From positions 1 to 20,091 of IMG/VR virus record IMGVR_UViG_3300005529_001115: a stretch of 20,091 bases of DNA. The stretch is one strand, 5' to 3'. Below, piece after piece: positions 4,315 to 19,087 of the stretch. The stretch comes from a virus. Within the stretch, counting starts at the first letter, position 1; every line of letters starts with the position of its first letter. The translations under genes and the position numbers were made by a program. The notes below the pieces were generated by a model that made no database searches, was not told the DNA's origin, and saw only the letters and a program-made list of their open reading frames with translations.

Positions 4315-6336
4315 CTAACGCAACACTTCCCAATTCACCACCAGCCCCGAAGGCGTCTGCGAACTGGCCGTCGGATTGCACAATTTCCAGTTCACGTTCC
4401 CGCTGGTCACGTACGAACTCAGCGCCAGCAGGCCATCCGCGGTTGCGGGCGCGCTGGCATACGACCACTCGACGCGATCGCTGGTGAGCACTCCTGTCGC
4501 CGCTGTCGTCACCACAGACGCGCATGCTCCGCCGGCAATCGCCGAGCTGCCCAGCGTCGAAGTTCCCGCGGCGACCACTTTCGGCAGCGTCAACCCGCGA
4601 ATCCCGCAGAGGGCGCCCGACGCGCAGTTATCGCCGTAGCTCGCCAGGTTGTTGGCCCAGTCAGTGGCTTCGCTGTCGTTCCCCGGTGTGATGACGCATC
4701 CGCTCGGCGCGCTCAGGCCGCTTGCCGCGTTGTACAGAGTAAAACTCGTCGACGTCGGCGTGCCGGTGATCACCCATTCGCCGTTGTATCCGCTCACACT
4801 GCATCCCGAAATCACAACGGGCATGCCGCCATAAAGATTGTGTGCGGCGCTCGTTGTAAACGTGACCGTGTTGCCGGTTTCCGATGCGCTGGAAAATGTG
4901 GGCGCAGCCACCAGCGCCACATTCGACGCCGGGATGCGCACAAACATCGGGGCATACGCGTTGATCGGAAAGCCGGCCTGAAACGCCAGGTGAATTTTCA
5001 CCTGGCTCGCGCCCGCGGCAGGCGCGGTGACCTTCGCCAGCGCCCACAGCCACTGCCAATTCCCGTCGGTCTGATAGTAGGGACTGACCGTGAAGCCCGG
5101 ACCGGTCGCGCTGCCGCCGCTCGGTCCCCCCGCAAGCATTCTGATCGAAGGCTGATTGTTGACGAACTCGAGGCTGATCGGCCTGCCGAATACGCCGATC
5201 GGCGCGTTTCCGAATCCCGCCGTGCTTGCCGGCTGCGCCCACGCGCCGATGTAAATGTAGTCGCCCGCCGCAAACGTCAAATTATTGTTGTAAACGTAAT
5301 AATCGCAGCCGCCCGTGCCCGCATTCCCGGTGCAACTGAGTGTCGCCGCATTGGTCACGCCCGAACCGTCGCCCGGCCCCTGGATCTGCGTGAGCGTTGT
5401 GCCGGTGCCGTTATTCGCCACCCAACTCGCCGGATTTTGCGCCGCGAGATTGGCAAACCGCACGAAGCTCGCGCCAAAAGCTCTGCGGTATTCATCGACC
5501 TGCGGTTGCGGCAATCCATAAAGCCCGCCGCGCTGCGATTTCGCCGCGGGAATCACATTGGCGAGCGGCGTCAGTTCCGCGTAGGTCGGCGTTCCTCCGC
5601 TCGCGCTCGCGCTGCATGTGCCTGTGCCGACAGTGAGCGGCCCTTCGAGAAACGCGTAGTTTCCTCCTTGCACGATTCCGGAGACATTCGTATTGCAAGG
5701 ATCGTTTCCGGCCGCCACGCGCACCACGGGAATATTCGTGCCGCTGTCGGATTCTCCGCCTTCAAGAATGATGTTCGCCGCGAAGGTGCCATTGTTGATC
5801 ACTTCAAAGAGGGGCTGACTCGTGCCCGCTCCTTCCATCAGCGCACGGCGCAGATAAATGCTGGAGGTCACGCCGGTATTGGCGTCGAAGCGAACTCCGC
5901 CGCCTCCGGTGAAGAAAACGTGGTCAAAATAGATCAGCCCAAGCGCGGTGTTGTTGCCGCCGTTACTGAAATAGGCATTCGCGGCCTGGTTCGACGTCGC
6001 CGGGACTCCGGCGCCGTTTTCCAGCACCGAGTCGTGGATGTTGAACCAGATCAGATTCCCGCCCACGTCGAGAGTCGGTCCGCCGCCGCCCGGACAACTG
6101 ATCACGCACTGCGCGCGCAAATCGACGTGGTCGAATTCGATTGTGCCCGCGGGATTCGAGGAATTGACGCGCCCGCCGTTCGAGTCGATGGAGAGCCGCA
6201 CCGCTGCTTCTGCGGCAATTTTCACGCGGCTGAGCGTCACGCCGCTCACCCCCGAAAGCCACAATCCCGGCGTCGAATCGTTTCCGCACGCCAGCAGCGT
6301 CACCCAGCCATTGGTCGAAGCCGCGCATAAGCCGCC
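4315..6336 (-). CDS. Tail spike, central and C-terminal part (frameshifted from the 6300-7289 piece)
   Basis: About 670 residues continue the 6300-7289 reading frame in another phase, so this is probably the rest of one tail spike. It begins with repetitive beta-strand turns (WLSGVSGVTLSRV, IEFDHVDLRAQ, GLIYFDHVFFTGGGG) typical of a right-handed parallel beta-helix. A jelly-roll-like region follows (GDYIYIGAWAQP onward), then a small beta module (4699-4872) shared with the large virion gene. The last 90 residues (STLGSSAIAGGACASVV to VVNWEVLR) resemble a compact C-terminal domain I associate with phage tail fibres. No SD-preceded start was seen at its 5' end, which supports a broken gene over an independent one. 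Catalytic residues cannot be assigned; a host-surface polysaccharide is the inferred target. Confidence 0.75.
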   Translation of the reverse strand, partial: GGLCAASTNGWVTLLACGNDSTPGLWLSGVSGVTLSRVKIAAEAAVRLSIDSNGGRVNSSNPAGTIEFDHVDLRAQCVISCPGGGGPTLDVGGNLIWFNIHDSVLENGAGVPATSNQAANAYFSNGGNNTALGLIYFDHVFFTGGGGVRFDANTGVTSSIYLRRALMEGAGTSQPLFEVINNGTFAANIILEGGESDSGTNIPVVRVAAGNDPCNTNVSGIVQGGNYAFLEGPLTVGTGTCSASASGGTPTYAELTPLANVIPAAKSQRGGLYGLPQPQVDEYRRAFGASFVRFANLAAQNPASWVANNGTGTTLTQIQGPGDGSGVTNAATLSCTGNAGTGGCDYYVYNNNLTFAAGDYIYIGAWAQPASTAGFGNAPIGVFGRPISLEFVNNQPSIRMLAGGPSGGSATGPGFTVSPYYQTDGNWQWLWALAKVTAPAAGASQVKIHLAFQAGFPINAYAPMFVRIPASNVALVAAPTFSSASETGNTVTFTTSAAHNLYGGMPVVISGCSVSGYNGEWVITGTPTSTSFTLYNAASGLSAPSGCVITPGNDSEATDWANNLASYGDNCASGALCGIRGLTLPKVVAAGTSTLGSSAIAGGACASVVTTAATGVLTSDRVEWSYASAPATADGLLALSSYVTSGNVNWKLCNPTASSQTPSGLVVNWEVLR

Positions 6337-9051: not shown

Positions 9052-9744
9052 TCAAAGTTTGCCCCTTGGAGGCGTGTTCTTAAGATTCTCATCGATATCG
9101 GTATATATTGGTCGATGCTTGTATTCATAAGGGCCAAAAACCCTGTTCACGCCAGCTGTCGAGTGCTCAGGATCCTTTCGATCGATAACGCGAGGGCTAG
9201 TCGAAGAAGTGTAGCGGTTATTAAACCAGATCCGGCCGCCTGTTGGGTCTTTGCCCGCGAGCTGCTCCTGAAACGCTTGGCGCGCGGCCTTTAGCGCCTG
9301 CTGATATGCGGCTGAGTTCTCAAGCTGCGGATCAACTTCCTTGCCCGCTGTACCCGCTCGATGATCCCGCTGATCGCCAAAAGTTCGATCGCCGTTGATA
9401 ATGGCGTGTGCCTTCCACAGCTTGGACTCGTAGAAATCCTCGGGCGAGGAAGGCCCCGCAGTAACATTCCTGTCCTCATTCGCAACGATATTGGCCACTT
9501 GCCGCACCGTTAGTTGGTTGATCTTCATGTCGTCGTAGGCTTCCGGCGGCGTTTCCGGCGGTGCGGGAGGCGGAGGCGGCTCGGTGGCTGATCGCGGCGT
9601 CGTCAGATGATCGACTAGCCGGTCCACCCAGGAACCCGAGCCGGTTTGCGTCGCGAGGCCTGGAAACGCATCCGCGATCCTGCCCTGTTCCAGCGACTGG
9701 CCGTAGTCGCCATTCATGTAGTAATTGCCGTTCACAATGGGCAT
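9052..9744 (-). CDS. Putative SleB-like cell-wall hydrolase (endolysin candidate)
   Basis: The 230-residue product starts at ATG 9744. An N-terminal segment (1-50) leads to a proline-rich linker (about 55-68). A domain follows whose pattern recalls SleB-type hydrolases: an early helix (TVRQVANIVANEDRN), WKAHAIINGDRTFGD (about 110-124), a helix with YQQALKAARQAFQEQLAG and the end motif DPTGGRIWFNNR (166-177). In SleB relatives this domain cleaves peptidoglycan, with a glutamate near the N-terminus; Glu90 is the only evident candidate. No signal peptide is visible, so a holin would be needed for release. It follows the small virion protein in the late block. Assignment is by motif resemblance only; a structural protein carrying a hydrolase-like fold is possible. 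Confidence 0.5.
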   Translation of the reverse strand: MPIVNGNYYMNGDYGQSLEQGRIADAFPGLATQTGSGSWVDRLVDHLTTPRSATEPPPPPAPPETPPEAYDDMKINQLTVRQVANIVANEDRNVTAGPSSPEDFYESKLWKAHAIINGDRTFGDQRDHRAGTAGKEVDPQLENSAAYQQALKAARQAFQEQLAGKDPTGGRIWFNNRYTSSTSPRVIDRKDPEHSTAGVNRVFGPYEYKHRPIYTDIDENLKNTPPRGKL

Positions 9745-9778
9745 GATTCGATTTCTTCTATTGGCGGGTGTCCCCGAA

Positions 9779-9855
9779 CTGTCATCCCGAGCGAAGTCCC
9801 GCGCATTTTTGGGGTTCCCGCGCAAAAGCGCGGCGCGGGACGTAGCGAGGGATCT
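9779..9855 (+). repeat. Family A palindromic element, copy 6
   Basis: Left end CTGTCATCCCGAG, right end AGCGAGGGATCT. The core pairs GTCCCGCGC (9796-9804) with GCGCGGGAC (9833-9841), a perfect nine-base stem. It lies 40 bases beyond the stop of the 9895-10275 gene. Confidence 0.85.
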
Positions 9856-10424: not shown

Positions 10425-11681
10425 TTAGTAGCCCTGCGGCCGCGCCAGCCCGTCTATATACGCCCCGCTGCGCGGTGAATCCGAGAACACCTGAAATCCG
10501 GTGTCGAAGTAAAAAATAAAAGCCGCCGCCAGCCCGCCCGAAGTCCCATAAATCGGAAAGACGGTCTGATCGCCGACCTCGAAATAGTCGATATCCTTGA
10601 TTACCGCGCGTCCCCAGTGCGAAAGGTCGAGGAAGTCGACGCGCGTCTGGTCGGCATTGATCGAGGACTTGATGGGCACGCCGGCCATGGTTTTTCTTCC
10701 CGTGAAGAGCAGGTCGAGATTGTCGCTGCCGCCGCCCGGACCTTCCTTGATCACCTGGCTGATGGTGATGCCCAGATTTTCCCAGGCGTGCTCCTGTTCG
10801 ACCGAAGTGTACGCAATCAGTTTGCCGAGCTGGCCGATGCCCAACGCCTTGCGCACTTTGTTGATCGCCAGGCGCACGTACCCCGGCACCAGCGCCGAAT
10901 TCGCCGCATTCACGCGCGGCGTCTGCAACTGCTGCGGATAGGTCGCGCGGTTCAGGTTCATCCACGTTCCGGTGGTGGCGTTGTTCTGGTGGTACTTGAT
11001 GCCGAAAAGCGACGTAGGCGAAGCGCCGCTGAGCCCGTCGTGCACGATCACATCGGTTGCGACGGTGCCGCCCGGCACCGCGTCCACGGTAATCGTCTGC
11101 GTGGTGCTGATCGGGTCCGCAGCCACGACGTTGCACGAGCCGCGATTGGTGGTCAGCGTGGTGTCATACACCTGAATCGTCTGCCCGACGTAAACCAGCG
11201 CCGCGCCCGGCGGCGTATTCATCGTCAGCGTCGTGCCGCCCACCGAGCCGATCGTGCCCAGCACGCCGTTGCCGGCGGTCTGCAGCACTTTGTCCAGAAA
11301 CGCGCGGAACTGCTTCATTCCGTTGGCCACTTCGCGTTTGGCCGCGTTCTCGATGGCCTTCTCGCGCGCATTCGTCGCGTACTCGACCAGTTTGGAAATC
11401 TCCACCGCGAATCTGAAAAAGATCGGCGAAATCTGCGCCACGTCATAGCTCGTTCCCGAACCGCGCCCCAGATCGCCGCCGTCGGCGTTGTACGAGCCGC
11501 CTTTGCCGCCCGGATTCACCTGCAGCGGAATGCGCATGTTGCGCGAGCTGACTTTCTCCACGTCTCCGCGCTGCTGGATCATGCTGAGCAGGACGTCGTC
11601 GCGCTCGTACAGCAGCGGCACTTTGTCCCGCACCTTTTCCAGTTGCAGCGCAATCGTCTGCGTGTTTTGCATTTGCGCCAT
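10425..11681 (-). CDS. Major capsid protein (HK97-fold type)
   Basis: The 418-residue product begins at ATG 11681, with GGAGAA six bases upstream, and ends in TAA. The N-terminal region (1-60) is helical, leading to an E-loop-like glycine-rich stretch (about 56-80) and a long helix (about 98-135) matching the spine helix of HK97-fold subunits. Residues 137-217 form a beta-rich insertion (GTIGSVGGTTLTMN, VGQTIQVYD, TQTITVDAV), then the fold resumes (GYVRLAINKVRKALG, LGKLIAYTS, TMAGVPIKSS). The C-terminal FIFYFDTGFQVFSD resembles the final strands seen in phage coats. It sits between scaffold and decoration candidates, the classic order. It should form the capsid shell. No N-terminal cleavage region is evident, in keeping with use of a separate scaffold. 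Confidence 0.9.
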   Translation of the reverse strand: MAQMQNTQTIALQLEKVRDKVPLLYERDDVLLSMIQQRGDVEKVSSRNMRIPLQVNPGGKGGSYNADGGDLGRGSGTSYDVAQISPIFFRFAVEISKLVEYATNAREKAIENAAKREVANGMKQFRAFLDKVLQTAGNGVLGTIGSVGGTTLTMNTPPGAALVYVGQTIQVYDTTLTTNRGSCNVVAADPISTTQTITVDAVPGGTVATDVIVHDGLSGASPTSLFGIKYHQNNATTGTWMNLNRATYPQQLQTPRVNAANSALVPGYVRLAINKVRKALGIGQLGKLIAYTSVEQEHAWENLGITISQVIKEGPGGGSDNLDLLFTGRKTMAGVPIKSSINADQTRVDFLDLSHWGRAVIKDIDYFEVGDQTVFPIYGTSGGLAAAFIFYFDTGFQVFSDSPRSGAYIDGLARPQGY

Positions 11682-12047: not shown

Positions 12048-12650
12048 CTACAGATCCAGGATCTGCTCGTCGGTCATCTTCGAGTAATCGATTTTCCGTG
12101 GAAGCAGCGCGCTCGCCGGAATCGTCGCCGGCAAAGACCCCCCGGTAACATCCCGCCGCGCGGCGGCCGCATCCACGCGCGCCGCCCGCGCGCGGTCCGA
12201 AGCCAGCACCGATGAAGTCCATTCCGCGATCACTCGCCGCGCCACCTCCGGCATCGCGGCACGCGCCCGGCTCGTGATCAGCGAAACGACCTGCTGTCGC
12301 GTCGCGCCGTCAAAATTCCAGCCGCGCAGGATTTCGCCCACTTGCCGGCCGAGCTCGCGGTCACCGGAAAGTGTTGCATGCAACTCCTGGAAAATGTCAT
12401 TGCCGATGCGCCGCCGCGCGCCCTCGCCAATTTCCTCTGGCAGCGTAGAACTGAGCGTGCGGCCGATCGCCTCGCGCGTGGCACGCGCGACATCTTCGTT
12501 GGCCGCCGCCTCGAAGGCACGATACGCCTCAGCCGGAAAGGCGCCGGCGCTGCCGTTGTTTGCGGGAGCCTGGTTTTGCGCTGCCGCGTTCGCCTCCAGC
12601 GAACGCGCCGCCTGTGCCAGCGACTTCGCTGGCGCATTTGTGGTTTGCGT
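12048..12650 (-). CDS. Scaffold-like protein, C-terminal part downstream of an in-frame TAA
   Basis: The frame directly continues that of 12651-13334 and stays open for 200 codons after the TAA (12651-12653). The segment from 12650 to 12384 has no ATG or GTG; only a TTG at 12383 offers a start, deep in the sequence. It is helical and rich in Ala, Arg and Glu, with a compact block (LGRQVGEILRGWNFDGATRQ, ARRVIAEWTSSVLASDRARA) and the C-terminal peptide MTDEQILDL. That peptide also appears near the N-terminus of the other half. Phage scaffolds bind coat protein through such short terminal elements. The piece is probably the second half of one 428-codon gene; independent expression from TTG is less likely. 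Confidence 0.65.
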   Translation of the reverse strand, partial: TQTTNAPAKSLAQAARSLEANAAAQNQAPANNGSAGAFPAEAYRAFEAAANEDVARATREAIGRTLSSTLPEEIGEGARRRIGNDIFQELHATLSGDRELGRQVGEILRGWNFDGATRQQVVSLITSRARAAMPEVARRVIAEWTSSVLASDRARAARVDAAAARRDVTGGSLPATIPASALLPRKIDYSKMTDEQILDL

Positions 12651-13334
12651 TTAGCTCACGCCGAGCCGCCGCGCCAGTTCTGTCAGCGCCTGCGGATCGC
12701 GCTCCGACAACATGCGCGCGCTGGCGGCCAGCATTTCGCGAAATGCCGCGGGATCGCTCTCGTAAAGCCGCGCCGCCAGCCCCGAGCGCGCGCTCGCATC
12801 GCTGCTGAAGTAAGCGGCGTCGAGCGCGGCCACATTTTGCGCCGCTTCCCGCCATTGCCGCGCCTCTGCCGCAGCCGCGGGCTGCGGGTCGAGCTGCTTC
12901 AGCCATGCCGGCTCGCCCTGCGTTTCGCGCGCGAGGAGTTCCCCCTGCGCGCCTGCGCGCTCGGCGATCGATGGGGCAGGTGGGTAGGGCTCCGATGTCT
13001 GCCGGTTGTCGTGCGCTGAAAGTCGGCGGTTAGTCGGGCTTTCAGCGCTTAACGAAGTCGTTGTGGCGCCTCGCGAGCTAGACGAACTCCCCTCCAGAAC
13101 CGCCATGTCGTCCTGCGCTTGCCTTTGCTGTTCGTTGTCATTCTGGGGCCCGGTTCTCAGGGACGAAGCATCCCTCTGCGACTGTTGGGTTGTCGCCCAC
13201 GCCGCTCCGGCGTTCTGGCCCGGAGTTCCTGAGAATGTTGCTTCCAGATCACTCATATCGAGGTCGAGAATCTGTTCATCCGTCATTCCCGCCATGCGCG
13301 CCGCCGGCGCGCTCGCGCTGCTTCCCTGCTGCAT
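12651..13334 (-). CDS. Scaffold-like protein, N-terminal part ending at a premature TAA
   Basis: ATG 13334 is preceded by GGGAGGA. The 227-residue piece carries MTDEQILDLDMSDLEA at about 17-32. A low-complexity linker (about 45-115) includes RDASSLRTGPQNDN, which is encoded by a family A-like repeat (13134-13180). An alanine-rich helical region follows (LDAAYFSSDASARSGLAARL, MLSERDPQALTELARRLGVS). The gene lies between portal and capsid, the usual place for scaffold or scaffold-protease genes. No protease catalytic motif was seen. The stop TAA falls between two helical segments of apparently one protein. Confidence 0.7.
   Translation of the reverse strand: MQQGSSASAPAARMAGMTDEQILDLDMSDLEATFSGTPGQNAGAAWATTQQSQRDASSLRTGPQNDNEQQRQAQDDMAVLEGSSSSSRGATTTSLSAESPTNRRLSAHDNRQTSEPYPPAPSIAERAGAQGELLARETQGEPAWLKQLDPQPAAAAEARQWREAAQNVAALDAAYFSSDASARSGLAARLYESDPAAFREMLAASARMLSERDPQALTELARRLGVS
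13134..13180 (+). repeat. Family A-like sequence inside the scaffold gene
   Basis: GTTGTCATTCTG at 13134 and GGACGAAGCATCCCTCTGCG at 13161-13180 match a diverged family A unit. Read in frame on the minus strand it encodes the SLRTGPQNDN linker. Confidence 0.6.
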
Positions 13335-13353: not shown

Positions 13354-13415
13354 TCGTCATCCCGGGGAAGCTCGCCTGCATCTTCATGCGGGCGAGCGAC
13401 GAGGGTTCTGCTTTT
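13354..13415 (+). repeat. Family A palindromic element, copy 9
   Basis: TCGTCATCCCGGGG and GACGAGGGTTCTGCTTTT flank a twelve-base stem, GCTCGCCTGCAT (13370-13381) against ATGCGGGCGAGC (13386-13397), with one wobble pair. Its right end touches the portal stop codon. Confidence 0.85.
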
Positions 13416-16012
13416 CATTCTCGTAATTTCCCGTCGCCGGCTGCCGCAGGGGGCCGTTTTCGATTCGGCTGCTCACTGCCCTGCGCCTGCTGCCGCGCCA
13501 GGGCTGCCGCATGTTCCGCCGCGTGCGCGCGCACGTTCGCGAATCCCGCCGGATTCTGCGCCCGCGCGATCTGCCCCGCATCCGAACTGGCCCAACGCCG
13601 GCACTCCTCGAATTCCGTGGCGTGATCGTCCAGCAACTCATCCACCGGCACTGTCGAGCGCACGACCGCCGGCGCGCCGGGCGTGCCTTCCGCGCTTCGC
13701 CCGGCAGTTATGCCACCCAGGCCGAAGTCCCCGGTAAGGGGACCTTCGGCCGTCAAAAGAAGCTGTATCTCCCGCAGTTGCTTATTGCGCGCGTCTTCGC
13801 CCGGCACGACCAGCTCGCTCAGTCCCACCAGGGACTTGATGAACCCGAGATTCGCCGGCTCGCGCAGCGCGGCCTGAATTGCCGGATCCGGATTGGTCAT
13901 GAGTTGCTGTACGACGGCGCGCTGCTGCGATTTCAGCCGCGGGAATGTTTCGTCCGATTCGGGATGCGCCTGAATGTTGCCCTTGAGGTTCGCCAGCCGA
14001 ATGAACCGCGCCTGAAATTCGCCGCCCGCGCCGAGAAATGGAATCTCCACGTCGCCCGGCCGGTTCTTGCGGAAGCAATCCACGGCCAGCAGCATCACAT
14101 CGCAATAAAAAGCCTTGAGCCGCCGCCATACCAATCCGAGCCGCCCAAGCGCCTGGTCGCGCGCCATCGCGTAGCCGCTGGCCGTCTTGACGTTTTCCAT
14201 CTCGCCGCCAAACACGGCGGGAAAAAGGCCCGTCAGAAATTGCGCGATGGGACCGATCAGATCCTGCTGATGCCGCAGCATGTCCGGAGGTACCTGCGCC
14301 GGCGACGGTTGGAAAAATCCGTCGGCCAGCGACATGCCCGGCCGTGCCCGCGCCGGGTAGTGAGCCGCTGGCTCGGCCGTTTGATTCGCGAGGGCATCGA
14401 AATCCAGCACCTGCGGATCGGCATAGATCGGCGGAATTCCGTAATCGTAGGTCTCCGCCTGAATATTCGAGAGCGTGTTGTAACGCTCCTGCAGCTCGAT
14501 CAGCGAATCGCCCACGCTTGGGCGATTCTGCCCGTCGCCGGGCAGCGCGTGCATCACGCGCCAGCAGTCATCCATCGATTCGTTGCGCGATTCGCAATAA
14601 GTCTCGCCCGCAAACGCCACGTAGCAGCCGTCGGGAAACATGCGCAAAAGCTGGTCGCGTACCGCCGCGTCTTCGATGGAATAAAACGCCCACGGCCGGA
14701 TCCACGTCCGCGAAAACGTGACCAGATTGAAAAGCGCGTCCCCGGGATGGATCGTGGGCATCCCTTGTGCGACGGCAATCCGCGTCGCTCGTGCATACAC
14801 GTCGTCGGCTTGAATCGGGCCGCCCATCTGAATCTTGTCCGCCGCGTGCGGATAGGCGGCCTTGAGCTTCGCGCGGTGCACTTCCATCTGCCATTGCAGA
14901 TAGGGGAATTCGTACTGCTCGTTGGCCCACACCGGGGTGTTCAGCTCGAGACCGCCGACGATGGAGATGACTTCCTGCCCGTTGGCCACGCGCCGCGTGC
15001 CCACCGATTGCGGCACCGGTACCACCGGCGCCGGCCGAAAATCATTGGCCCCGAGCGCCGCGCCGCATCGCGGACAAATTGCCCCGGCAAAAAACGACGC
15101 TGCGCCTGCCGCCGGCCCCGTCCCCGCAGCCGCCCGGCCACTCCCGTTGTCGTTCTGAACGCCGCCAGGATGCACGGCGCCGTTTTCGTTGTCATTCCGA
15201 GGCGCGCTTTCCAGTTCCGAGGAACCCCGCTGCCGTATTTGCCTTTCTTCCGCACCGCGGTCGCTGACTTCGGTCTCTGCTCCGCAGTTCGCACACACAT
15301 ACGCATCCCGCCCCAGCCGCACCCAGCGCTCTTCGAGCAGCAGTTCCTCGCGCCACCCGAACCGCTGCCCGTCGGCCACGTACCGCACGTAGCCGCCGAT
15401 CTTTCCGTCGGTCCACAGATAAAATCCCACGCCGGTGAGCAACTGCTGCACGCGATTGTTTTGTTCCACCAGATCCGCTACCTGCGAAGCCGCCTTCGCC
15501 GTCTCGACATCGGCTTCGCTCAGCGTGGACTGCGGATAAAATCGCGTCGCCGGCACGTCCTGGCTGATCACCGACACAAACGAAAGCCCAAACGCCTGAT
15601 ACAAATTCGTGACGAACTGATAGCGCGGCATCTCCTCCAGCGCCGAGTCGTCGTAGATTTTCGCTTCCCACGGCAGGTGCCAGTTCATGTCCTGCGGATT
15701 CCACCAGGCGTACTGCAATCCCTGCCAGAAAAGCCGCGCCTGGCGAATGCGCCGGATTTCGTGCCGCCGCGCGACGATGCCTTCCTGCCGGAACTGCACC
15801 ACCAGCTCGCGCAGCGCGTTCACGAGCCGCGGCGCCGCTTGTTCGAGGCGCTCGTTGTTGGGACCGAGCGCCTGCGCGTTCGGATCGCTTTGCGAATCAA
15901 CGGCCAATGACGCACCGCCAACCTGCACCGACTGCGTCGACGCATTGCCATCGGCCTCGACGTGCGCGCCCCGCTGCGTGTCGTTCAAAATCGCGTTTTC
16001 ACTCGTGCTCAT
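13415..16012 (-). CDS. Portal protein, long form with an interrupted zinc ribbon
   Basis: The 865-residue product starts at ATG 16012 after GAGGGC and ends in TGA. It is large for a portal, closer to short-tailed-phage portals. Typical features are the early helical region with ARLFWQGLQYAWWNP (about 92-106), YQFVTNLYQAFGLSFVSVISQDVPATRFYP (about 131-160), and the later AERY/NVKTASGYAMARDQALGRLGLVWRRLKAFY wing-to-stem part. Residues 238-325 contain a zinc ribbon whose cysteine pairs, Cys240/Cys243 and Cys313/Cys316, are pushed about 70 residues apart by a repeat-derived insertion. The portal forms the dodecameric DNA gate at one vertex and binds terminase. It lies between the terminase block and the scaffold. 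The Ala/Gln-rich tail (about 825-865) is low-complexity. Confidence 0.9.
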   Translation of the reverse strand: MSTSENAILNDTQRGAHVEADGNASTQSVQVGGASLAVDSQSDPNAQALGPNNERLEQAAPRLVNALRELVVQFRQEGIVARRHEIRRIRQARLFWQGLQYAWWNPQDMNWHLPWEAKIYDDSALEEMPRYQFVTNLYQAFGLSFVSVISQDVPATRFYPQSTLSEADVETAKAASQVADLVEQNNRVQQLLTGVGFYLWTDGKIGGYVRYVADGQRFGWREELLLEERWVRLGRDAYVCANCGAETEVSDRGAEERQIRQRGSSELESAPRNDNENGAVHPGGVQNDNGSGRAAAGTGPAAGAASFFAGAICPRCGAALGANDFRPAPVVPVPQSVGTRRVANGQEVISIVGGLELNTPVWANEQYEFPYLQWQMEVHRAKLKAAYPHAADKIQMGGPIQADDVYARATRIAVAQGMPTIHPGDALFNLVTFSRTWIRPWAFYSIEDAAVRDQLLRMFPDGCYVAFAGETYCESRNESMDDCWRVMHALPGDGQNRPSVGDSLIELQERYNTLSNIQAETYDYGIPPIYADPQVLDFDALANQTAEPAAHYPARARPGMSLADGFFQPSPAQVPPDMLRHQQDLIGPIAQFLTGLFPAVFGGEMENVKTASGYAMARDQALGRLGLVWRRLKAFYCDVMLLAVDCFRKNRPGDVEIPFLGAGGEFQARFIRLANLKGNIQAHPESDETFPRLKSQQRAVVQQLMTNPDPAIQAALREPANLGFIKSLVGLSELVVPGEDARNKQLREIQLLLTAEGPLTGDFGLGGITAGRSAEGTPGAPAVVRSTVPVDELLDDHATEFEECRRWASSDAGQIARAQNPAGFANVRAHAAEHAAALARQQAQGSEQPNRKRPPAAAGDGKLRE
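15146..15235 (+). repeat. Family A-like sequence (two units) inside the portal gene
   Basis: GTTGTCGTTCTGAA (15146) and GTTGTCATTCCGAGG (15188) start two left-end-like units; the second ends with CCGAGGAACCCCGCTG. Read in frame on the minus strand they encode GSSELESAPRNDNENG and VQNDNGSG, which separate the two halves of the zinc ribbon. Confidence 0.65.
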
Positions 16013-16108: not shown

Positions 16109-16184
16109 GCTAAATACGTCGTTGTCATCACGAGGCCGCCGCGAACGAAAGCATGTACTCCTGCGCACGCGCCACTCCACAGCA

Positions 16185-16246
16185 CTGTCATCCCGAGCCC
16201 AGCCCCGGCGCCTTTGGTCGGGGATGGGGGCGAGGGATCTGCTTTT
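16185..16246 (+). repeat. Family A palindromic element, copy 11
   Basis: CTGTCATCCCGAG and GCGAGGGATCTGCTTTT flank a CCCCG/CGGGG-paired core. A half copy with only the left end lies just before it at 16121-16135. Confidence 0.8.
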
Positions 16247-16285
16247 CCTTTTTCGGGCTTCAAACTCGACTTCTAAATTCCCGCC

Positions 16286-16345
16286 GTTGTCATCACGAGG
16301 AAATTCGCTCGCACGATGCGAGCGAATGACGAGGGATCTGCAGTT
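16286..16345 (+). repeat. Family A palindromic element, copy 12 (identical to copy 13)
   Basis: The core is a perfect eleven-base stem, ATTCGCTCGCA (16303-16313) and TGCGAGCGAAT (16317-16327). The 60 bases, and about six more, are identical to 16551-16610. Confidence 0.95.
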
Positions 16346-16360
16346 GCCTTTGGTTTTTCG

Positions 16361-16392
16361 GGTGCCCCACCCATCGTACTTAGGGGTGGGTA
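16361..16392. repeat. GC-rich hairpin (CCCACCC / GGGTGGG)
   Basis: Seven-base arms at 16366-16372 and 16384-16390. It directly follows family A copy 12, in the same arrangement as 4024-4112 and 16551-16647. Confidence 0.75.
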
Positions 16393-16550
16393 TTGCCGAA
16401 ATGTGTTTGTAGCCGCGTCCTTCAGCGGGGTCCCCGGCACGCGGGTAGCTTCAGGGCGGCGGTTAGGCGAAGGCGCACTCGACCGGGCTTTAGCCCAGCC
16501 GCTGCACCACCGTGCGGCTCTCTATCACCTCCCGCCCGCACTGCAAAACC

Positions 16551-16610
16551 GTTGTCATCACGAGGAAATTCGCTCGCACGATGCGAGCGAATGACGAGGG
16601 ATCTGCAGTT
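16551..16610 (+). repeat. Family A palindromic element, copy 13 (identical to copy 12)
   Basis: An exact second copy of the 60-base element at 16286-16345, 265 bases away, again followed by a CCCACCCC hairpin. Confidence 0.95.
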
Positions 16611-16623
16611 GCCTTTTGGAGTG

Positions 16624-16647
16624 CCCCACCCCTTCTGAGGGGTGGGG
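16624..16647. repeat. GC-rich hairpin (CCCCACCCC / GGGGTGGGG)
   Basis: Perfect nine-base arms, 16624-16632 and 16639-16647, with loop TTCTGA. It follows family A copy 13. Confidence 0.85.
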
Positions 16648-16743
16648 CTGGGACACACCAGTGTAGCCGCCGTCCTCGAGGGCCGAGGAGGAGCCTGGCG
16701 TACCCAGCCGTTTCCGCTCTGCACTCGTCGGCTGCAAACAGAC

Positions 16744-16815
16744 GTTGTCATTCCGAGCGGAACCGGGTCCTAGCACGCGCTGCCTTTGTGCGTGCTGGGG
16801 TGGAGCGAGGAATCC
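16744..16815 (+). repeat. Family A palindromic element, copy 14
   Basis: GTTGTCATTCCGAGCGGAA and TGGAGCGAGGAATCCC flank a core in which AGCACGC and GCGTGCT pair. Confidence 0.75.
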
Positions 16816-16881
16816 CTCATAGGTTTTTGCTTCGCCCTCCATCTCGCGGATCGTCGTACTTAAGGGTGGGACTTCGCTGCG

Positions 16882-17064
16882 TTAACTGCTCGTTTGCCGC
16901 AAATCGTTTCCTTCCTTTGCCCGCGCCTCCCGCGCCGCCTCAATTTCCCTTGTCATCGCAATCTGCGACCACGAACGTCGCCGTATCGGCGCAACCTGTG
17001 CCGGATGCAGCGGCGGCGTCTCGATCGGCGGAACGCCGGCCGTGCCCAGCAGCGAATTCAGCAT
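16882..17064 (-). CDS. Partial in-frame duplicate of the coiled-coil gene's C-terminal half
   Basis: ATG 17064 opens a 60-residue frame whose first 48 residues (MLNSLLGTAGVPPIET to EIEAAREAR) match the C-terminal half of the 107-residue protein at 17116-17439. The DNA from 16925 to 17070 matches 17165-17310 at an offset of exactly 240 bases, with four differences, all at synonymous third positions. The tail AKEGNDLRQTSS is unique. The frame is open upward to the TAA that ends the longer gene (17116-17118), so the two copies are in phase. It may be a separate short protein or the remnant of a longer one; no Shine-Dalgarno sequence is evident. Confidence 0.5.
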   Translation of the reverse strand: MLNSLLGTAGVPPIETPPLHPAQVAPIRRRSWSQIAMTREIEAAREARAKEGNDLRQTSS

Positions 17065-17070
17065 GGCGCG
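16925..17070. repeat. Direct repeat, left copy (about 146 bases)
   Basis: Matches 17165-17310 at an offset of 240 bases. The first 107 bases are identical; the only differences are at 17032, 17035, 17038 and 17065. Confidence 0.95.
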
Positions 17071-17115
17071 CTTGCACGCGATTAGCGTGCAGAACAGAAA
17101 GTCCGAGCGCAGCCG

Positions 17116-17439
17116 TTAAGTTAAGGGTTGCTGCTGTCCCAGACGCTCCCGCTCTCGTCCTCGGGCCTCCCGCGCCGCCTCAATTTCCCTTGTCATCGCA
17201 ATCTGCGACCACGAACGTCGCCGTATCGGCGCAACCTGTGCCGGATGCAGCGGCGGCGTCTCGATCGGCGGCACTCCCGCCGTGCCCAGCAGCGAATTCA
17301 GCATCGCGCGGTTCTCCGCGCGCAGCCACTCGATCTCCTGGCGCTCTCGCGCAAGCTGCGCTTCGAGCATGCGCACATACCGCCCGCGAAAACTCTGCCA
17401 CACCCGCGCACACCACTCCTCTATACGAAGTCCCGTCAT
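17116..17439 (-). CDS. Small coiled-coil protein between terminase and portal
   Basis: The 107-residue product starts at ATG 17439 and ends in TAA. Residues about 20-50 (RYVRMLEAQLARERQEIEWLRAENRAMLNSLLG) have a heptad-like pattern of Leu and Ile suggesting a coiled coil. A proline-rich stretch follows (GVPPIETPPLHPAQVAP), then a basic helix (RRRSWSQIAMTREIEAAREARGRERERLG). It has no membrane segment or cysteine pair; a single Cys occurs near residue 10. The upstream spacer (17440-17563) holds no clear Shine-Dalgarno sequence or hairpin. The place between large terminase and portal suggests a packaging or portal accessory role. No family is recognised. Confidence 0.65.
   Translation of the reverse strand: MTGLRIEEWCARVWQSFRGRYVRMLEAQLARERQEIEWLRAENRAMLNSLLGTAGVPPIETPPLHPAQVAPIRRRSWSQIAMTREIEAAREARGRERERLGQQQPLT
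17165..17310. repeat. Direct repeat, right copy (about 146 bases)
   Basis: The counterpart of 16925-17070, lying inside the coiled-coil gene. Confidence 0.95.
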
Positions 17440-17563
17440 TTTATTTTTCGTGAGAATTCTGTTGCGAAGAAAATGCTACTGCTGGAGAGAAGTCGTCTGG
17501 CCCACCGGAGCTTTGTCGTCCCCCTTTTCCTGGGTAAGACAATGCAACCCTTTTGAACAGCCT

Positions 17564-19087
17564 TCATCGCGGCCCATGCCGGTGCGGCAGCACCGGCGGC
17601 TTTGCCGCGCGCTGCTCCTGGCGCAGCAGCTTCCGCATCCAGATCGCCCGCGAAGTCGGATCCACCGCGCTGATGCGTTCGGCCACGCGCTGCTCGACGG
17701 GCGGCCGCGCCGCCCCGAGCCGCGACTTCAGCCCGTAGCGCGCGGCATCGGCCGGATCGTCGCCATCCATCTTCCTCACGTCCTCCACGTTCACCGGATC
17801 GCGCACCAGCGTCGGGAGGCATTCGATCAGCCTCGGGCAACTGTCCGCGATCACCCACTTCCCTTCGCGCAGCATCTGGTACATCAGCATCCATCCGCCC
17901 ACGCGGTCGTCGTCGGCGCGCGCCGGCTGCGGCAGCCCGTAATCAGCGAACACCTGGCCCAACTGATCGGCAATCGTGTCTGGCGAACTGTGGTGCGCAT
18001 ACGCATCCGGTGAAAGAAGAATTTCGCGGATGCGCTCGCCGCCCGCGCGAGCATCGCCGCGCCCATCGCCGCTGCGTTCGGCAATCTCTCGCGCCAAAAT
18101 CTTCGGCTCGACGTTATGGGTCACGTATTCGCGATACGTGACCACGGCGCCGTCGGGCCGCGCCGCGTGCCAGTAAACCGCGCTCGGATGCGCGTATCCC
18201 CAGTCGATCGAAATCCAGCGCGGCCAGAATTCCGCGAGCCCAAGCTGCTCGGCGCGCGCCGTATGCCGGCGCAAATCAAAAATATCGAAATACTGCCCGG
18301 CAAAGACGTTCCAGTCGCCTTCGAGGAACGCCTGCCGCAGATGATGCGGCAGTGCATCGAGCGCCTTCAGGTACTCCGCATCGTTTGCATAAATCGGATT
18401 GTCGGCAATCGTCGCGCGGATGAACGCGTAATCCGCCGGATCGTATTGCCCGGGACGATCCATCCCCGGCGCCGGACGCCGGTCAACCCACAGCGCCTTC
18501 ACCCAGGCATGACCGATGTTGCCAGGATTGGTCGCCGCCGCCATATTGGGCGTCGTGCCTTTTACCGGGCAGCGATTGCGGCTCGTCAGAAACTGCCACT
18601 GGCCCAGCGTGAAAAGCGTCAGCTCATCGATACCGATAAAAAGAAATTCCGCGCCCTGATATTGGTAGATATCGTTTTCACTCGCGGAATACCCGAATCG
18701 CGTGGTTGAACCGTTGTGCCAGGTGATGACGTGCTTGGCTTCGTTGTAACTCGCGTAAAGATCGCGCGGCACATCCCGCCGGAAATAAGTAATCAGCGAA
18801 GCCTCGAGTTCCGGAAACGTGCGCCGCAGCAGCAGCGTGTCCACGCGAGGCCATTTATTCGCCTGGCGAATCGCCTCCCACAGCAGCGCCTTCGTTTTCC
18901 CCGGGCCCGCCGCGCCGCCAAACAGCCGGTATTTCGCCGCGTTGCTGTGAAACTCCCTCTGCCGCTCGAAGGGGTTGTAGTGCTGCGAAATCGTTATCGG
19001 CGGACGCTCCTCGACCAACGGTGCACCCGCCTCGGCGGCACGCGGCGGCTTCGGCCACCAGCGCCACTGCCACGGCAACCATCCCAC
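17564..19087 (-). CDS. terL: Terminase large subunit (packaging ATPase and nuclease)
   Basis: The 507-residue protein starts at GTG 19087, five bases after the stop of the small membrane gene, and ends in TGA. The ATPase half shows Walker A GGAAGPGKT (57-65), Walker B FLFIGIDE (148-155; Asp154, Glu155) and the coupling motif AATNPGN (184-190). The nuclease half begins with SIDWGYAHPSA (Asp295), followed by the late acidic motif DDPADAARYGL (about 443-453, Asp447). The enzyme pumps DNA through the portal and cuts genome ends. Length and motif order are normal for large terminases. The tryptophan-rich start (MGWLPWQWRWWPKPP) is unusual. It is probably translationally coupled to the upstream gene, as no strong ribosome site is visible. 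Confidence 0.95.
   Translation of the reverse strand: MGWLPWQWRWWPKPPRAAEAGAPLVEERPPITISQHYNPFERQREFHSNAAKYRLFGGAAGPGKTKALLWEAIRQANKWPRVDTLLLRRTFPELEASLITYFRRDVPRDLYASYNEAKHVITWHNGSTTRFGYSASENDIYQYQGAEFLFIGIDELTLFTLGQWQFLTSRNRCPVKGTTPNMAAATNPGNIGHAWVKALWVDRRPAPGMDRPGQYDPADYAFIRATIADNPIYANDAEYLKALDALPHHLRQAFLEGDWNVFAGQYFDIFDLRRHTARAEQLGLAEFWPRWISIDWGYAHPSAVYWHAARPDGAVVTYREYVTHNVEPKILAREIAERSGDGRGDARAGGERIREILLSPDAYAHHSSPDTIADQLGQVFADYGLPQPARADDDRVGGWMLMYQMLREGKWVIADSCPRLIECLPTLVRDPVNVEDVRKMDGDDPADAARYGLKSRLGAARPPVEQRVAERISAVDPTSRAIWMRKLLRQEQRAAKPPVLPHRHGPR

Follow-up and report, generated by a model that had tools for sequence, protein, structure and literature searches.

A phage scaffold-like protein carries the same short, selected motif near its N-terminus and at its C-terminus

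Introduction

Scaffold proteins of phages are known to bind the coat through a single terminal end, which in 80alpha is a helix. The last 16 residues of the 80alpha scaffold form an amphipathic helix and a hook that lie on the coat N-arm and in the A/P cleft, and in both this scaffold and SaPI1 CpmB the C-terminal helix with its RIIK hook binds coat, point mutations being lethal (PMC5644958). The P22 scaffold gp8 is arranged in the order N-loop, base, column, C-loop and hook; its C-terminal hook contacts coat and portal, and the coat-binding element is C-terminal in the structures compared (PMC12005531). How a scaffold can tie coat and portal subunits together and still be removed later is not settled, and one reason is that procapsid maps resolve most of the protein poorly.

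In this study, we analyzed a 20,091-nucleotide stretch of viral DNA (hereafter, the window), in which an initial annotation had noted the peptide MTDEQILDL near both ends of a scaffold-like protein. We demonstrate that this twin terminal motif is real, under selection and confined to the scaffold in the loci seen. Our search of the open-access literature found no published scaffold in which one motif is shared by the two termini.

The protein resembles the 80alpha and CpmB system in its short, conserved and probably amphipathic helix at the extreme C-terminus, in its partner (here proposed) being a coat of HK97 fold, and in the rest of the scaffold being largely unresolved or flexible. Unlike 80alpha and CpmB, which have one copy and a C-terminal RIIK hook, it carries the motif [ST]DEQILx[LM], has it near the N-terminus as well, and its binding is putative. 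The C-termini of its relatives end in an [ST]DEQIL-type motif without RIIK. The likeness to P22 gp8 lies in the series of an N-loop, a helical body, a flexible C-loop and a C-terminal element, which in P22 binds coat; however, the P22 hook binds coat mainly via Arg/Lys charges, and the N-loop of gp8 is not described with a copy of the hook (PMC12005531). Neither a profile search of PDB sequences, which gave no convincing match, nor Foldseek at a threshold of E<=0.001 supported a relationship with gp8, an absence that is weak evidence. Encapsulin cargo-loading peptides are short terminal peptides on a flexible linker, which direct a protein inside an HK97-fold shell. The scaffold motif is likewise a short terminal peptide on a flexible linker associated with an HK97-fold shell; whereas encapsulin peptides mark cargo enzymes, the motif is found here on the scaffold alone, at both ends, and on no nearby ORF.

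Results and Discussion

The scaffold-like gene lies between a portal-position ORF and the coat gene

The gene order in the window, where it runs on the minus strand, and in its relatives is terminase, portal-position ORF, scaffold and coat (Table 1). The portal-position ORF gave no family match and is a putative portal, from its position between terminase and scaffold. The coat protein matches phrog_14242 weakly (E 3.4e-7), and its match to NF033394 (E 8.9e-10) is below the cut-off of that model. The AlphaFold model of the homologous coat of a relative, L079, has the HK97 fold and matches many HK97-fold capsids and encapsulins, the best structural match being the capsid of cyanophage A-1(L) (Z 21.2 over 291 residues). 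In that cyanophage too, a gene lies directly upstream of the similar coat gene; reading its sequence revealed no matching motif at either end.

Table 1. Features of the window discussed in the text
Feature	Position	Strand	Basis or remark
Terminase large subunit	17564-19087	minus	phrog_979, E 4e-38
Portal-position ORF, 865 residues, alternative motif partner	13415-16012	minus	gene order only
Scaffold-like gene, from its ATG (13334) through its TAG stop (last base 12048), with an in-frame TAA inside	12048-13334	minus	between portal-position ORF and coat gene
N-terminal motif copy MTDEQILDL, residues 17-25 of the scaffold-like protein	13260-13286	minus	conserved in relatives, pN/pS 0.13
Internal in-frame TAA, codon 228, separating the motif copies	12651-12653	minus	sense codon in closest relatives
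Conserved lead-in IDYSK preceding the C-terminal motif	12078-12092	minus	[VI]DY/NY equivalent in most relatives
C-terminal motif copy MTDEQILDL, residues 420-428, the final nine	12051-12077	minus	conserved in relatives, pN/pS 0.26
Major capsid (coat) protein, HK97 fold, proposed motif partner	10425-11681	minus	phrog_14242, E 3.4e-7

Read from 13334 to 12048, the minus-strand frame specifies a 428-residue protein with one internal TAA. As is usual for scaffolds of tailed phages, the gene is found downstream of the portal-position ORF and directly upstream of the coat gene. The expected helical and extended character is also found in the AlphaFold model of the intact L079 homologue, which is mostly helical (helices 102-221 and 258-403), with unordered ends and no strands. 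On gene order and helical prediction, we regard the protein as a scaffold-like component of the phage head. Family libraries recognized neither half of it, and a Foldseek search of a fold library with the scaffold model returned nothing significant.

In L003-L006, the closest four among the relatives examined, a sense codon takes the place of the TAA and a single frame runs uninterrupted. The roughly 200 codons downstream of the TAA still look to be under purifying selection in comparison with relatives (pN/pS 0.21-0.25), and thus the stop codon is recent, bypassed or an assembly error; the stop that splits the scaffold gene looks to be of recent origin. No good restart was found after the TAA, the first listed in-frame start candidate being a TTG at 12383. 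The earlier remark that the two motif copies fall on opposite sides of the stop is true here, and this separation is specific to the window.

The two copies encode one peptide with different codons

Both copies of MTDEQILDL were found at the coordinates originally given for them (Table 1). The N-terminal copy is encoded by ATG ACG GAT GAA CAG ATT CTC GAC CTC and the C-terminal copy by ATG ACC GAC GAG CAG ATC CTG GAT CTG, with TAG as the next codon. Seven codons differ, each in the third base, and ATG and CAG are unchanged. The NG86 count is 7 synonymous and 0 non-synonymous differences, confirming that the peptide is identical despite third-position changes. A looser motif search of the window in all six frames retrieved 2 sites, both of them the known copies.

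An identical nonapeptide within one protein could in principle arise by chance, or by recent copying of a coding segment inside the gene. The number of identical 9-mer pairs expected by chance at the same length and composition is 4e-5, and none of 2000 shuffled proteins contained a repeated 9-mer, although 0.2% of them contained a repeated 7-mer. This expectation, the seven synonymous and zero replacement differences, and the dozens of relatives that hold both copies at the same places rule out a chance repeat or recent copying, to which we give next to no credence. The view in the initial annotation that the copies were not recently duplicated is largely right, since the third positions are scrambled; it needs the qualification that the two copies share codons slightly above expectation across the relatives (0.476 versus 0.422 expected, p 0.012). 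Genome codon usage could explain this slight excess.

Both ends are conserved in a lineage of uncultivated phages

Searches based on the coat protein yielded 71 IMG/VR loci, 18 bacterial-genome loci and further, more remote loci. A scaffold was identified in 136 of the 138 loci examined, which gave 106 non-redundant proteins at 75%. The comparisons below cover 80 non-redundant scaffolds of clades A and D and 26 proteins of clade B. All 18 bacterial-genome loci are titled as Acidobacteria, Terriglobia or Candidatus Acidiferrum MAGs, and one genome locus lies deep within a 624-kb contig, indicating that at least some are integrated. In L074-L091, the lineage is seen in Acidobacteriota MAGs, including well inside long contigs. 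Neither coat nor scaffold queries retrieved a cultured relative from INPHARED, even at E 5, and no relative of the lineage was detectable in 50,697 phage records. The lineage is one of uncultivated soil phages, widespread and associated with Acidobacteriota.

When the homologues were aligned and scored at their two termini, the check proposed in the initial annotation, each terminus proved to be conserved in clades A and D. The N-terminal motif [L/M][S/T]D-E-[Q/E]-I-L-x-[M/I/L] is present in 72 of the 80 non-redundant scaffolds of these clades, usually 7-50 residues past the first Met, with a few outliers up to 98. Among these copies, D occupies position 3 in 72/72 and I occupies position 6 in 71/72. 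The C-terminal motif ends nearly every clade-A/D protein, a few of which run several residues further. The preferences of the two copies differ: position 2 favors T in the N copy and S in the C copy, and position 8 favors G in the N copy and D/G/N in the C copy. When N-terminal regions were scanned with the profile of the C-terminal motif (leave-one-out), the mean score was +12.5 bits, compared with -10.6 for shuffles and -10.7 for middle regions. The N-terminal regions of 62 of 69 clade-A scaffolds reached p<=0.01, and several of the remaining ones carry the motif past the 130 residues scanned.

A third copy, in tandem near the N-terminus, is present in L013, L019, L024, L036, L039, L045, L050 and L060. 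Homologues with only one conserved copy, which had been named as the finding that would speak against two maintained copies, do occur, in a minority: the N copy is absent in L020 and L169, which keep the C copy, and is eroded in L021, L051 and L062 (for example, FDTAAESILEID). As it is missing or degenerate in five relatives, the N copy is not strictly required. The C copy is the more universal of the two.

Substitution rates from 172 pairs of moderately related scaffolds revealed a pN/pS of 0.13 for the N motif and 0.26 for the C motif, whereas the linkers next to them reach 0.82 and 0.73 and the body has a value of 0.34. Since pS is similar in all regions (0.59-0.67), the contrast lies in replacement changes. 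Low pN/pS and conservation across dozens of diverged proteins bear out the earlier suggestion that selection maintains both copies.

The clade-A loci extend some 5-10 kb to each side of the coat gene. Across ~1.4 million translated residues of these loci, the motif pattern matched scaffolds 133 times and never another ORF; the four seeming exceptions are N-terminal pieces of the frame-shifted scaffolds of L037 and L086. A general loading tag shared with other head proteins was also considered and was rejected, as no other ORF carries the motif in the loci searched (~5-10 kb around the coat gene).

The two ends change in parallel

The consensus of the motif is Phi-[ST]-x-x-[QED]-[IL]-L-x-Phi. 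A hydrophobic staple (positions 1 and 6) with a capping box (positions 2 and 5) is a common helix start, and the motif sequence fits a self-capping amphipathic helix. In the AlphaFold model of the L079 scaffold alone, each end has a short predicted helix that begins just past the S/T cap (N 25-28 and C 449-454). A model of the scaffold tail fused to the coat likewise places a short helix at 44-49, directly after the cap.

Distances between N motifs and distances between C motifs remained associated after coat and body distances had been removed (partial Mantel r 0.23, p 2e-4), although such tests are possibly liberal under shared ancestry, which limits the strength of the argument from co-divergence. 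The association is found at motif positions 4, 5, 8 and 9.

Clade B, whose coat is about 40% identical, has a different motif that is weakly alike at the two ends, with C-termini such as GMSTLDYLMKD and N-terminal islands of the type MSKEDMIEF or STEDFLMADD. A pairwise BLOSUM comparison of the N and C ends of each protein is underpowered in this clade, and a pooled profile test was used instead. The N regions scored -3.7 bits against the C motif of their own clade, the best of 300 group shuffles reaching -5.3; this likeness is significant for the group only, with 3 of 26 single proteins at p<=0.01. Both ends of the clade-B proteins also contain the pattern Phi-[STN]-x-x-[EQD]-Phi-Phi more often than expected (N, 9/26 versus 1.2 expected; C, 20/26 versus 0.5 expected). 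We read this as a single motif that has probably been retuned at both ends within each clade.

The motif is a good generic helix start, and helix-capping convergence could therefore account for a partial likeness of the ends. Carried to its limit, this explanation holds that both ends need a stable helix start, that LTDEQIL-like caps are favored for it, and that no ligand is shared. The fit of the motif to capping box and hydrophobic staple and the enrichment of a capping pattern in clade B agree with it, but positions 3, 7 and 9 are conserved outside the cap, the motif is absent from other ORFs of the loci and the two ends covary. Moreover, it is hard to see what a helix of some six residues would do at the end of an unordered chain if it lacked a ligand. 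We consider convergence alone highly improbable.

Alternatively, the helix-capping shape may be common to both ends while their partners differ, the C copy binding coat and the N copy binding portal or another head protein. The coat-binding region is C-terminal in the phages studied, and scaffold also contacts portal (PMC12005531); consistent with such a division, the C copy is retained more widely than the N copy, and the copies differ in detail (T2/G8 favored in N; S2 and D/G/N8 in C). However, the N and C copies covary beyond the divergence of coat and body, and clade B changed both ends together, which is easiest to understand if both ends see the same surface. Different partners for the two ends constitute an unlikely alternative.

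A proposed scaffold with two docking ends

We propose that the scaffold is two-headed and that the docking helices at its termini bind at the same site, which is most likely part of the HK97-fold coat; we consider the chances of this proposal to be evenly balanced. In this model, flexible, fast-changing linkers flank a helical middle, each outer end bearing the same short linear motif, and a single scaffold chain could carry a pair of coat subunits, or coat plus portal, at the ends of its flexible tethers. The helical bodies would self-associate while the ends hold the subunits. Both copies probably dock into the same kind of site; by analogy with the C-terminal helix and hook of 80alpha, this site may be the inner face of the HK97-fold coat.

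Somewhat short of an even chance, in our estimate, is a homobivalent scaffold, one chain of which docks two coat subunits via identical end helices and directly crosslinks the growing shell. Such a protein would act beyond the combination of one coat-binding end with multimerization of the body. A homobivalent scaffold would also accommodate the third, tandem N-terminal copy of some relatives, and the motif and its receptor pocket would be expected to change together between phage clades.

In L079, the coat gene is in frame with the scaffold tail across 45 intervening codons, and the fusion given by this natural read-through was modeled. VDYRKLSDEQILEM is the sole tail segment over pLDDT 50 in the fusion model, with the motif block at about 58. 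In the scaffold-alone model (pTM 0.41), the C motif reaches pLDDT 76-79 and the N motif about 64, both above their flanks; the comparison is not clean, the tail being covered by 9 alignment rows in the fusion versus 57 in the scaffold alone. The initial annotation had thought binding to coat or portal plausible, and modeling the tail fused to coat did not strengthen that idea, as AlphaFold confidence was no higher than for the scaffold alone. The two models gave no support for the coat over the scaffold's own body as the motif site, and the case for the coat therefore rests on analogy.

One or both motifs might instead pack on the helical body of the scaffold, in cis or between subunits, and so drive multimerization or restrain the tails before assembly. 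The raised pLDDT of both motifs in the scaffold-alone model is what such packing would predict, but it perhaps reflects only the deeper motif alignment and helix capping, and the pTM of that model is 0.41. Docking of the scaffold on itself would also make it hard to understand why the body evolves faster than the two ends, which are the best-conserved parts of the protein, and we judge it quite unlikely.

With regard to the two-headed scaffold, the same tag at both ends offers a simple experimental handle in the form of two 9-residue peptides and tail-swapped scaffolds. This handle bears on whether valence sets shell curvature or assembly rate. The tag might, in addition, direct proteins into the shells of this widespread uncultivated Acidobacteriota phage lineage.

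Further observations on the scaffold and neighboring genes

In L037 and L086, an ORF of 84 codons, ~1.5 kb upstream of the coat gene, contains the N motif and a second copy in tandem with it. The remainder of the scaffold is in another frame, so that here, too, the N tail is detached, in this case by a frameshift. In L157, the 3' end of the scaffold gene (DDDILDGRL-stop-DVTRQGTA) is apparently repeated past the stop codon in the gap between scaffold and coat (4650-5000), which is suggestive of a tandem duplication of the gene end.

Residues ~240-316 of the portal-position ORF contain two conserved CxxC pairs, and the profile of this ORF matches zinc-finger proteins in the PDB (E 3e-9), which suggests a zinc-ribbon insertion in this portal-like protein. 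Between scaffold and coat, L006 and L091 have an extra ORF of ~217 codons (MAIPD..DDTSWW..). By eye, it resembles the window ORF at 9052-9825, which follows the coat gene and matches Hydrolase_2 weakly; the gene may have been relocated relative to the window. Finally, near-identical stretches, such as SSRGNSLARCERMTRDLQLP, recur in the ORF translations of window positions 16122-17450, and LNFPCHRNLRPRTSPYRRNLCRMQRRRLDRR recurs at about 16894 and 17128, which points to repeats between the terminase and portal genes.
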